From the IMG/VR virus record IMGVR_UViG_3300022074_000152, positions 1 through 36,617 of that record: a stretch of DNA of 36,617 nucleotides; one strand, written 5' to 3'. Of this stretch, positions 9,782-13,639 are shown in pieces. This DNA is from a virus. A program made the position numbers and the translations under genes. The notes under the pieces were generated by a model that did no database searches, was not told the origin of the DNA, and was given only the letters and a program-made list of their open reading frames with translations. The first letter of the stretch is position 1. The number at the start of each line of letters is the position of its first letter.

Positions 9782-10726
9782 TTAGGCCGCTATTTGAAAG
9801 TCTGCAATAACCTGTTGAACTTTCTCAGACTTCTTGACTTGAGCTACAGGAATGTCAACAGTATTTTTACGACTACCGACATGGTGGCTTGACCAATCAG
9901 TCAAAGCATTATATATAGCCCAATGATTACTGCCCATTGCAGGAGCATAACGCTCTCTATATTGTGTCCAAGCATACATTAAAGAACTATTATTATATGC
10001 TGTAGGCATGGTCATTATTGAACTAGGTGTCTCTCCCTCTTTTAGTTTACCTACTGCAAATTTAGAACCTGTTGCCTTTGCAATATATTTAAATGCTTTC
10101 TCAATAGAAGCGGGGGTGTTATGCCATCTGGCCCATATTTCATTTTGGGTATCCAGTATATTCATAATCCTATTCATTTGATGTGCGCCTTGATCGACAC
10201 TTAACTTCTGAGTGTGTCGAGCCTTGTAAATACCAGCAGTCTGTCCAAGGAAAACTTGGTGGTTTGTGCAAGCATTTTGTAATGCACCGACAGTGGCTTG
10301 ATAGGGCCATGCAGAATTAAATGAATTGATATGTAGCATCTCAAGGATAGCCGTGTCGCCGTCAGGCGTTACAATCTCATGGTTAGGTAACTGGTGCCTA
10401 ATAAAACAAACCCCACCGTTATCACCAACTTGGATAGTTTCTTTAATGTCACCAAGATTTAATTTGCTGCGCTCTAGGACATTACGAGCAGTGTCGATCA
10501 TCTTAGTATGTGATACAGGCTGATATCGCTCACCGTGGATCGCCAAAGCATCACCAGTATCTTCACGATAATAAACTTTCTTATTGTCAAGTTTAAGTAC
10601 ACCACCATCTTGATCCCTATACAATACTGGTGTGGCGGTCACTTGAAAGTCTGCCTCGCCATAGCCAGAATCCCGAAGGTTATCAACTGCCGAATTGTTT
10701 CCAAACAAAAAACTAATTGTGTTCAT
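9782..10726 (-). CDS. DUF932 protein (phage/plasmid-like TIGR03299 type)
   Basis: 314 residues. The DUF932 pattern runs almost end to end: early YREDTGDALAIHGERYQPVSH, then LHINSFNSAWPYQATVGALQNACTNHQVF, and a C-terminal region with NHWAIYNALTDWSSHH. The family is widespread in phages and plasmids; its biochemical role is unknown to me. The start has AGGAG five bases before the ATG. It follows its own probable promoter (10886-10914) and a leader of about 150 bases beginning with a long hairpin. The leader also has a shorter GGAGGT/GCCTCC pairing near 10794-10825. Confidence 0.88.
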   Translation of the reverse strand: MNTISFLFGNNSAVDNLRDSGYGEADFQVTATPVLYRDQDGGVLKLDNKKVYYREDTGDALAIHGERYQPVSHTKMIDTARNVLERSKLNLGDIKETIQVGDNGGVCFIRHQLPNHEIVTPDGDTAILEMLHINSFNSAWPYQATVGALQNACTNHQVFLGQTAGIYKARHTQKLSVDQGAHQMNRIMNILDTQNEIWARWHNTPASIEKAFKYIAKATGSKFAVGKLKEGETPSSIMTMPTAYNNSSLMYAWTQYRERYAPAMGSNHWAIYNALTDWSSHHVGSRKNTVDIPVAQVKKSEKVQQVIADFQIAA

Positions 10727-10832: not shown

Positions 10833-10882
10833 CCCTAGAAAAACTAGGAAGGTCGTAAGACCTCCTTCCTAGTTTTCTAGGG
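10833..10882 (-). other. Long bulged hairpin A at the 5' end of the DUF932 transcript
   Basis: Left arm 10833-10852 and right arm 10864-10882 pair over 19 bp with one extra A. The apex adds GGTC-GTAA-GACC. The plus-strand right arm carries three extra bases (CCTCCT where CCT is expected). Read on the minus strand, the 5' arm contains AAGGAGGT, a perfect Shine-Dalgarno with no start codon at a usable distance. The predicted transcription start (about 10879) would put the hairpin at the extreme 5' end of the mRNA, where it could protect the message. Confidence 0.75.
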
Positions 10883-11720: not shown

Positions 11721-11904
11721 AGGCTTTCTCCCATTCTTTAGGTGTTATGCCTGACACTATAAATTCACGTTCACCATCAGTCAAGTTTGGCATTGCATCT
11801 TGAATTAACATACCACCCTGCCAGTTATTAAACTGTTCAGCAGTAATTGGCATATCAATAATGCGACGAACACCAGTTAACATAGATTGTTTTTCGATCA
11901 GCAC
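11710..11904 (-). CDS. Conserved small phage protein (SGITPKEWEKAFGE type)
   Basis: 64 residues from GTG at 11904, which has AGGAGG five bases upstream. The core MPITAEQFNNWQGGMLIQ, then MPNLTDGEREFIVSGITPKEW, is a small helical protein type I recall from many phages, of unknown function. Translation from the internal ATG of MPIT (residue 18) is possible but has no ribosome site. A long bulged hairpin and a terminator lie immediately upstream, so this and the Gp88-like gene are probably under attenuation or processing control. Confidence 0.7.
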   Translation of the reverse strand: MLIEKQSMLTGVRRIIDMPITAEQFNNWQGGMLIQDAMPNLTDGEREFIVSGITPKEWEKAFGE

Positions 11905-11917
11905 ATTATCCTCCTGT

Positions 11918-11970
11918 TCCCTTTTTAATCTTTAGAGGTCTAAAGACCTCCTCTAAAGATTAAAAAGGGA
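11918..11970 (-). other. Long bulged hairpin B overlapping a terminator
   Basis: Perfect 21-bp arms (11918-11938 and 11950-11970). The apex AGGTC-TAAA-GACCT offers an alternative pairing that leaves a 3-base excess in the plus-strand right arm, as in hairpins A and C. On the minus-strand RNA it ends 13 bases before the GTG of the next gene. Its 5' arm uses the 3' half and U-tract of the terminator at 11962-11982, so the two structures exclude each other. Confidence 0.8.
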
Positions 11971-12455: not shown

Positions 12456-12476
12456 AAAAAGCCCCCCGAAGGGGGC
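12456..12476 (-). terminator. Intrinsic terminator after the first leftward gene
   Basis: On the minus strand GCCCCC-TTCG-GGGGGC followed by TTTTT. It starts 10 bases after the stop of the 12486-12860 gene and ends 10 bases before the ATG of the membrane peptide. The first gene of the leftward transcript would therefore be more abundant than those behind it. Confidence 0.85.
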
Positions 12477-12485
12477 CAAGTTAAA

Positions 12486-12860
12486 TTAGATCATTCCAAG
12501 GTCAGCGGCAGTCGCAAGACGAGGAGCCGAAGAAGTCTTAAAGTTCTTTGACTGCTTTGGATTCGCAGTAATCTTAACTTCTTTATTCGACTTCAAGTCT
12601 TCAGTCTTGAGGACTTTAAGATACTTGGCAGCAGCCGAAGTCTTACCGTTGATTTTCTTGACGGAGAATAATTTATTCACATCGCCAGCCAAAGGCTGAC
12701 CTTCGTGAACCGACTTGATCGTGGCCCCAAAGCGAGCTTTGAGCTTGTTAAATTCAAAACGCTTGATATCGTTTTCACCGATATATTTGTAAGCCAAGGT
12801 CGAAGCCACCGCATAGATAGCTTTGTCAGTTGCAGGTTTTGTCAAATCATACTTAGCCAT
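12486..12860 (-). CDS. First leftward gene, basic hypothetical protein
   Basis: 124 residues, strongly basic, starting MAKYDLTKPATDKAIYAVAS, with a Lys/Ser-rich C-terminal third (KSNKEVKITANPKQSKNFKT). No recognised family; basic composition suits nucleic-acid binding. It is the first gene behind the leftward central promoter, after a leader of about 700 bases with nine hairpins, and has its own terminator. This implies early, abundant expression. GGGA lies about 9 bases before the ATG. Codon use is slightly more GC-rich than its neighbours. Confidence 0.75.
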   Translation of the reverse strand: MAKYDLTKPATDKAIYAVASTLAYKYIGENDIKRFEFNKLKARFGATIKSVHEGQPLAGDVNKLFSVKKINGKTSAAAKYLKVLKTEDLKSNKEVKITANPKQSKNFKTSSAPRLATAADLGMI

Positions 12861-12914
12861 AATCGTTTTCCCGATTGTGTAATTTTTCGTTGAGCCGCTG
12901 TCGGCCCTTCCTAG

Positions 12915-12981
12915 TTTTGACTCTCTTTAAAATCTTCAGAAGTCGTAAGACTTCTTCTGAAGATTTTAAAGAGAGTCAAAA
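12915..12981 (-). other. Long bulged hairpin C (largest of the array)
   Basis: Perfect 28-bp arms, 12915-12942 and 12954-12981, with an 11-base apical loop. The apex can refold as AAGTC-GTAA-GACTT, leaving a 3-base excess in the plus-strand right arm, exactly as in hairpins A and B. It is the last structure before the first leftward gene, 55 bases from its ATG. The 13-mer CCTTCCTAGTTTT at 12906-12918 also occurs in hairpin A. Confidence 0.85.
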
Positions 12982-13310
12982 CTTCTCAGCTAGTCCCTTT
13001 AAAACCTTAAAAGGTTTTAAAGGGACTAGCTGGATCGTAAAAGACCCAAAGGGTCTTTTAAATTTGGGAGTTCTTAGCTCCTCTTAGGAGGAGCTAGATG
13101 GCTGTTGAGGCTTGGCAGCTAATTAGTTTTCAAAGCCTTGAAAACTAAGAAGAACTTTGAAGTTTACTTTAAACTTCAAAGACTAAAAAGACTTTAGTTT
13201 ACTTTGTAAACTAGAAGTCTTCAAAGTTTTCTGGAGGGCAAACCTCTAAAGTCTTCTTAGACTTTAGAGTTTTGGGAGGTCGCACTTAAAAGTCTTCAGA
13301 GACTTTTAAG
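12915..13310. repeat. Array of nine hairpins in the central non-coding region
   Basis: Consecutive inverted repeats (arm length, loop): 12915-12981 (28, 11 bases); 12987-13032 (22, AA); 13038-13060 (10, AAA); 13075-13096 (9, TTAG); 13123-13148 (11, AGCC); 13155-13181 (12, CTT); 13188-13221 (15 with one bulge, TTT); 13244-13269 (11, TCTT); 13285-13310 (11, TCAG). Spacers are 5-26 bases. Arms share short words (AAGTCT, CTTTAAA) but differ in sequence. None has a good U-tract like the true terminators here. The array would lie in the leader of the leftward transcript. A weaker pairing AGGTGG/CCACCT follows at 13371-13391. Confidence 0.9.
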
Positions 13311-13431
13311 ATTACGCGGGAAGGTAAGATAGTATTACAGAGTTCTTCTGAGATCTTTAGAGGGCGGGGCAGGTGGCCATACCCCCCACCTACTATATAT
13401 ACTAATTCGTATACATTTTAAGTAGAAATAG

Positions 13432-13522
13432 GTGTTAACTAGTTTAGGCGGGTCTTTAAAGTCCTACCGTACCCCCATATGAGCCAAAAGTAGTGTTCAC
13501 TAGTTTGGGTGGGTCTTCAAAG
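13432..13522. repeat. Two imperfect direct repeats, 61 bases apart
   Basis: GTGTTAACTAGTTTAGGCGG followed by GTCTTTAAAG (from 13432), and GTGTTCACTAGTTTGGGTGG followed by GTCTTCAAAG (from 13493). They match at all but four of about 30 bases. A third, shorter GGTGGGTC occurs near 13559. They lie just downstream of the leftward promoter start and contain a near-palindromic ACTAGT core. They could be protein-binding sites or origin repeats; no specific role is shown. The remaining bases of 13311-13573 hold nothing else I recognise. Confidence 0.6.
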
Positions 13523-13573
13523 AGCTTTAAAGGGGAAGATATATATAGGTATAGCCCCGGTGGGTCTATGTAT

Positions 13574-13602
13574 ATTATAGAGATTATTTTACGATTTGTC
13601 AA
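13574..13602 (-). promoter_or_regulatory. Leftward central sigma70 promoter
   Basis: On the minus strand TTGACA (13602-13597), a 17-base spacer and TATAAT (13579-13574): a perfect consensus. Predicted start near 13567, about 707 bases before the ATG of the first leftward gene, so the transcript carries the direct repeats and hairpin array as its leader. Confidence 0.9.
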
Positions 13603-13620
13603 GAAAAAACTTGACAAATC
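13593..13620. promoter_or_regulatory. Inverted repeat spanning both central -35 boxes (candidate operator)
   Basis: GATTTGTCAAG, six A residues, CTTGACAAATC: perfect 11-bp arms. Each arm contains the -35 box of one of the divergent promoters, so the symmetry extends five bases beyond the hexamers themselves. A dimeric regulator bound here would affect both promoters at once. No repressor gene is identifiable in the window, so the operator role is a hypothesis. The symmetry could also simply reflect two copies of one promoter. Confidence 0.6.
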
Positions 13621-13639
13621 TGTAAACTACCTATATAAT
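13611..13639 (+). promoter_or_regulatory. Rightward central sigma70 promoter
   Basis: TTGACA (13611-13616), a 17-base spacer and TATAAT (13634-13639): a perfect consensus. The predicted start (about 13646) coincides with the A of the small terminase ATG. It is the only strong plus-strand promoter I found, so it may serve much of the structural arm. Confidence 0.9.

Follow-up and report, generated by a model that had tools for sequence, protein, structure and literature searches.

The RNase III sites in the early mRNA of phage T7 are long hairpins, several per operon, located upstream of genes. In chloroplast spacers, hairpins undergo minute inversions, by which loops at perfect stems are flipped between close relatives. 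The put element of phage HK022 is a small RNA that folds into two stem-loops. Where compensation takes place at the RNA level and passes through G-U pairs, transitions should prevail and some wobble pairs should be seen in the stems. At the DNA level, homogenisation of arms and inversion of spacers are the signatures of template switching (PMC8604942, PMC8794818), which can both create and maintain RNA hairpins (PMC8794818) and, in bacterial data, favours transversions (PMC8604942). PMC9378689 presents put as an antitermination RNA. The locus described below, an array of nine hairpins in the predicted early leader of a marine phage, has points in common with each of these systems.

Genome context and promoters

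The window, by which we mean the whole stretch of DNA analysed (a virus record of 36,617 bases), is an HMO-2011-type pelagiphage-like genome. It was placed with the HMO-2011-type phages on the basis of its large terminase, which shares 66% identity with the one in Pelagibacter phage HTVC115P, and 43-50% with those of Roseobacter CRP phages and HMO-2011; the phage is marine and kin of the phages of SAR11 bacteria. In DNA comparisons with isolate phages, only terS was matched, and no array was found in the isolates compared. Leftward genes left of ~12.9 kb encode a primase/helicase, a DNA polymerase, and a Cas4-type exonuclease, and rightward genes right of 13.6 kb encode the terminase and portal. 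The cumulative GC skew reaches its minimum at 13 kb, where gene direction also switches, and the two are not separable. The array (12913-13310) is situated between a leftward promoter and the first leftward gene, with the following features at its borders.

13602-13574, minus strand: leftward sigma-70 promoter P1 (TTGACA-17-TATAAT), 12/12 consensus letters, kept in related leaders
13593-13620, no strand assigned: inverted repeat GATTTGTCAAG-AAAAAA-CTTGACAAATC, containing both -35 boxes of the divergent promoters
12486-12860, minus strand: first leftward gene, encoding a 124-aa basic protein (pI 9.9) of a family found with arrays

The placement of the array inside the leader of the leftward transcript, predicted in the initial annotation, is supported by P1, which faces the array with a full set of consensus letters. 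An equally perfect rightward sigma-70 promoter stands back to back with P1 (13593-13646); its -10 box ends at 13639, leaving ~7 nt up to the ATG of the small terminase (13646), and that mRNA would therefore be nearly leaderless. The region between P1 and the array (13380-13567) contains conserved boxes, including TAGACCCACCGGGGCTATA at the predicted transcript start, the repeated GACCCGCCNAAACTRGT, AAAATGTATA...TTAGTATATATA, and GGTATGGCCNCCTGCC, as well as CTAGTTNACA, which is present twice, among these boxes and in H3. Parts of these promoter and leader boxes resemble HTVC115P and HTVC103P. A GC-rich UUCG terminator (12460-12477) directly follows the first leftward gene, so that the P1 transcript would be largely monocistronic.

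Structure of the hairpin array

Perfect or near-perfect hairpins fill 12913-13310 of the minus strand end to end. The nine inverted repeats and the extent of about 400 bases reported initially are thereby confirmed, with two corrections: the left edge lies at 12913 and not 12915, and the arms range from 8 to 30 bp in place of 10-28 bp. The example given there of arms that differ at two positions with compensation in the opposite arm, CTCTAAAGTCT/AGACTTTAGAG versus CTTAAAAGTCT/AGACTTTTAAG, is also correct. The hairpins are as follows.

H1, 13310-13285, minus strand: 11-bp arms; 100% of cells paired in 12 relatives
H2, 13274-13239, minus strand: 15 of 16 positions paired, one mismatch; loop AAGA, flipped to TCTT in relatives
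H3, 13213-13195, minus strand: 8-bp arms, 3-nt loop
H4, 13181-13155, minus strand: 12-bp arms; loop orientation flips among relatives
H5, 13148-13123, minus strand: 11-bp arms
H6, 13096-13075, minus strand: 9-bp arms; loop CTAA, orientation fixed
H7, 13060-13038, minus strand: 10-bp arms; loop flips between TTT and AAA
H8, 13032-12987, minus strand: 22-bp perfect arms, 2-nt loop; stems exchanged wholesale in relatives
H9, 12983-12913, minus strand: 30-bp perfect arms; further 7-bp stem inside, bulged by 3 nt on its 5' side
12894-12905, minus strand: small hairpin GCCG-ACAG-CGGC; in relatives GGGC-UUCG-GCUC, which has a single G-U pair in its stem and UUCG as tetraloop
12861-12876, minus strand: hairpin AATCG-GGAAAA-CGATT, adjoining the ATG, with a Shine-Dalgarno-like loop

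The loops of the array measure 2-4 nt, H9 excepted. The apex of H9 has its 3-nt 5' bulge below an invariant GTCTTACGAC and is fixed in orientation. The H3 core is kept in 18 of 18 leaders, either as CTAGTTTACAAAGTAAACT or as the first 17 letters of it, and a flip of its loop was never seen among them; the core AGTTTACAAAGTAAAC is invariant among related leaders, and a search of 257 Gb of cellular genomes returned no exact match to the H3 core. The palindromic leader continues past the array with the two small hairpins (12905-12894 and 12876-12861), the one at the start codon becoming ATTAG-GAAA-CTAAT in another subclade with its pairing kept. In dinucleotide shuffles of the leaders, 0.1-0.7 hairpins are expected, versus 3-9, mostly 6-9, in the leaders with arrays.

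Several other identities of the array were rejected. The stems are A+T-rich and without U-tracts, as stated in the initial annotation, and H4 alone has a weak U-rich tail, which is the one tract flagged by the terminator scan; intrinsic terminators are thus discarded. Dispersed repeats or a mobile element (REP/BIME, MITE) were rejected on finding only self and inverted-self matches in the genome, the H9 apex being the sole motif of the array that recurs elsewhere in it. The GGA motifs in hairpin loops of a sponge RNA of the CsrB/RsmY type were not found among the listed loops. Searches of the window gave no Rfam 15 match above the curated threshold and no tRNA or tmRNA, and in the literature on hairpin arrays in phages or pelagiphage leaders no relevant description was found. 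Together with the lack of an array in the isolates compared, the Rfam result bears out the initial impression that no element of this form has been described. An assembly artefact was rejected as well, as the array recurs in many independent assemblies and its arms and flips lie within one read length. Several public contigs (L001, L005, and L032-L035) end inside or near the array. Assemblies probably break at perfect hairpins, which may leave such arrays under-recorded.

Conservation and turnover of pairing in relatives

Relatives were gathered via the first gene, the H3 pattern, and the small terminase, which yielded 18 distinct full IMG/VR leaders that retain the array, the window included. 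Conserved pairing in relatives, in line with the initial annotation, is seen in 93.7% of cells when the structure of the window is counted on 12 of the 18 leaders. In these 12 leaders, 40 of the 128 pairs are changed on both sides, and cells changed on both sides number 125. Shuffling brings this number to 39 ± 5, and sliding the partner by one column to 6-21. Helices 7-9 lose cells where one subclade has other, equally perfect hairpins, which the aligner shifts; these counts are therefore conservative. The leaders are no less identical than the DNA on either side of them, and in part more so (for example, 99.4% versus 97-98%, and 97.0% versus 91-95%).

The number of hairpins, their stems, and even whole hairpins turn over among relatives. 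In one leader (L063), about five of the nine hairpins are lost, with H3, H8, and H9 retained and a new 22-bp hairpin added, which suggests that the short hairpins are interchangeable.

Template switching in the hairpin arms

In 75 distinct hairpins, we counted 1155 Watson-Crick pairs, 2 G-U pairs, 5 A-C pairs, and 32 other mismatches, mostly in the H9 bulge and at stem ends. Double stem changes in pairwise comparisons of the leaders comprise 570 of transition type and 702 of transversion type, from sequence pairs that share history and are not independent. For G-U against A-C to serve as a test of the strand, there are too few of either, namely 2 versus 5 pairs and 9 versus 0 intermediates in the pairwise leader comparison. 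For six loops, relatives carry the exact reverse complement while the stem stays the same (two cases each at H2 and H4, one each at H7 and H8). Between two of the leaders (L059 and L061), one loop flip is the sole difference; the DNA flanking them differs by 2-3%. As expected of template switching, the arms change together without single-side intermediates, and the spacers invert between relatives.

Since G-U pairs are nearly absent, transversions make up the double changes at least as often as transitions do, and loops are flipped, the pairing is renewed at the DNA level, and the sequences lend good support to DNA template switching as the process that renews the hairpin arms, one being rewritten from the other during replication. 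Compensated changes are usually read as proof of RNA function, and taken alone they had been the ground for assuming selection on the RNA in the initial annotation; the same three observations leave that assumption unsupported for the array. Perfect Watson-Crick pairing without G-U pairs is no sign of RNA selection, and roles at the DNA level fit it too. Template switching does not by itself say whether the hairpins are useful.

Signs of a role in the leftward RNA

The loops of H3 and H6 and the apex of H9 never flip, unlike the other loops. The linkers contain 28% C versus 13% G on the leftward strand, on which CTCC occurs 23 times and GGAG 0 times, and CCAA 24 times and TTGG 0 times; this excess of C over G is the opposite of what the leftward coding strand tends to show, namely more G than C. 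Linkers poor in G insulate hairpins from one another. Folding the 710-nt leader as RNA gives a z-score of -19.6 for the leftward strand versus -11.9 for the opposite one (20 shuffles each), and predicted stem formation in the window is only slightly better in the leftward RNA (0.95 versus 0.90). Apices of the H9 type, in which a purine repeat of 3-4 nt on the 5' side precedes GTCTTACGAC from below, are also present in two further palindromes of the operon.

11918-11970, minus strand: palindrome with an H9-type 3-nt-bulge apex (GGAGGTCTTTAGACC) on a 21-bp duplex, just upstream of the gene at 11904
10833-10882, minus strand: palindrome with an H9-type apex (GGAGGTCTTACGACC), preceding the gene at 10726 by ~110 nt

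The apices, which take the form GGTCTTTAGACC at 11918-11970, share one orientation and sit on different stems, and both further copies are located upstream of leftward genes; exact copies of the apex 10-mer number two, versus 0.03 expected. The 5' arm of the palindrome at 11970-11918 overlaps the U-tract of a UUCG terminator (11982-11967), and the terminator and the palindrome therefore exclude each other. The hairpin that contains the ribosome-binding site covaries among relatives, its small neighbour acquires a UUCG loop in some of them, and the leaders are at least as well kept as their flanks, all of which also speak for an RNA role. Taken together, the fixed H3, H6, and H9 apex, the G-poor linkers, and the recurring apex point to a putative function in the leftward RNA.

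Association with the first leftward gene

The 124-aa product of the first leftward gene is predicted to be helical (a model of moderate confidence; pLDDT, 76) and has no match in Pfam, PHROG, PDB, or fold searches. Among small-terminase-linked relatives, a relative of this basic protein is encoded at 10 of 10 loci that have an array and a readable first gene, and at 2 of 18 loci without an array (Fisher p, 5e-6, with kinship among loci ignored). Arrays are present in the clade of the window, in a sister clade (L084, L085, L087, and L118), and in L116; in L078, long hairpins are seen on a contig that ends before the first gene. Two loci (L107 and L108) have members of the basic-protein family and no array. 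L085 and L089 share a near-identical upstream leader, followed in the former by an array and the basic-protein gene and in the latter by another gene without an array, as if array and gene had been exchanged as a module.

In the sister clade, a stretch of ~450 nt that contains a different small ORF separates the array from the basic-protein gene, and the array is therefore not simply a translational operator of that gene. In sister-clade loci L136-L140, a second promoter-like site lies between the array and the basic-protein gene, and a long hairpin precedes the gene. A comparable leader lacking the array is found in many TerS-linked relatives, as well as in the isolates HTVC115P, HTVC103P, and HTVC033P; considering these together with the losses in L063, the array is not universally needed.

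Proposed function of the leader

Our tentative reading, to which we give somewhat less than even weight, is that the array is a structured early leader that shields the transcript, is processed at its long duplexes, and is kept perfect by template switching. The early leftward transcript would start at P1 and carry a 5' untranslated leader of ~700 nt, with the small basic protein encoded first. This leader RNA would fold into at least nine insulated hairpins with short G-poor linkers between them, and would end in a hairpin holding the ribosome-binding site beside the start codon. Selection would keep the array since the leader works as a structured RNA. By analogy with the early mRNA of T7, generic hairpins may shield untranslated RNA from decay and from Rho, and H8 and H9, as the long duplexes, may be cut and matured, probably by RNase III. 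H1-H7 would then be mostly interchangeable shielding units, and H3, H6, and the H9 apex specific recognition points. RNase III processing, one of the possibilities raised initially for the array, is plausible for H8, H9, and the two further long palindromes, duplexes of ~20 bp or more being found in H8 (22), H9 (30), and 11918-11970 (21); H1-H7 (8-16 bp) look too short.

It is unlikely, in our estimate, that the palindromes are a self-reinforcing mutational product of template switching in a tolerant non-coding stretch, devoid of an RNA role. Such a product would account for the homogenised arms, the flipped loops, the near-absence of G-U pairs, the turnover of hairpins, and the many relatives without an array, but not readily for leaders at least as identical as their flanks, for H3, H6, and the H9 apex being fixed in sequence or orientation, or for strand-asymmetric linkers; moreover, a compact phage spends some 400 nt on the array, and arrays track one gene family. 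A rather unlikely proposal is a single early module made up of the array and the basic first-gene protein. The array would be a non-coding RNA whose interchangeable, self-renewing hairpins offer many docking sites to that protein, or to an RNA-binding protein captured from the host, and template switching would let the phage change every stem without broken intermediates.

A DNA-level element, either a replication origin or a DNA-hairpin binding region separating the divergent operons, we regard as quite improbable. The skew minimum at 13 kb, which would suit an origin in this long non-coding divergent region, is inseparable from the change of gene direction, and the array is wholly on the leftward side, starting only past the leftward promoters. 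Pairing at the Watson-Crick level and template switching, which shows that the arms align in replicating DNA, are compatible with such an element; isolates lack an array at the same place, and no iterons were found. We give similarly little credence to a protein sponge or ribonucleoprotein, in which the hairpins and C-rich linkers would bind the basic first-gene product (autoregulation) or titrate a host RNA-binding protein. The restriction of arrays to loci with the basic-protein family in the TerS-linked set, the swap of array and gene for another gene between L085 and L089, the basic and predicted helical nature of the protein, and the CUCC(C)A words repeated in the linkers speak for it. 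Against these stand the lack of a fold or family match for the protein, stems and linkers too variable for one sequence-specific site, the family members without an array, and the non-adjacent array and gene of the sister clade. Transcription control by pausing or processive antitermination through the nascent leader, as with HK022 put, is very unlikely: intrinsic terminators do lie directly downstream of the first gene of the window (12477-12460 and 11982-11967), but first-gene terminators are also present in array-less relatives and missing from several array-bearing ones, with no association, and the array varies in sequence and number, in contrast to put with its two stem-loops in a short RNA.

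Comparison with known systems

The structured leader that we favour represents a modular element of the early leader for which we found no earlier description, linked to a basic protein family in HMO-2011-type phages, and its occurrence in an abundant type of marine phage offers a natural test of how far template switching alone makes and keeps RNA-like structure. It resembles the RNase III sites of T7 in its long early-transcript hairpins with an asymmetric bulge near the apex (H9, 11918-11970, and 10833-10882); the T7 sites, however, are not arrays, whereas here seven short hairpins stand in a row in addition, arms are perfect, and cleavage is a candidate process only. With the hairpins attributed to template switching (PMC8794818, PMC8604942), it shares double changes without intermediates, multi-base stem changes, and inverted loops; loop inversion is rare in the rRNA hairpins and frequent in the phage array, where it affects H2, H4, H7, and H8, four of the nine hairpins, within 400 bases. 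The minute inversions of chloroplasts concern single hairpins, in contrast to a conserved array in a leader. Like put, the array is a structured RNA in an early phage leader, but put is short and conserved in sequence. The many hairpins and a repeated short motif recall CsrB/RsmY, from which the array differs in having no GGA loops and in carrying its repeated words, which are C-rich, in the linkers. In kind, the element thus belongs with structured phage leaders, and what is new to us is a multi-hairpin array that is renewed by template switching and tied to one gene family.
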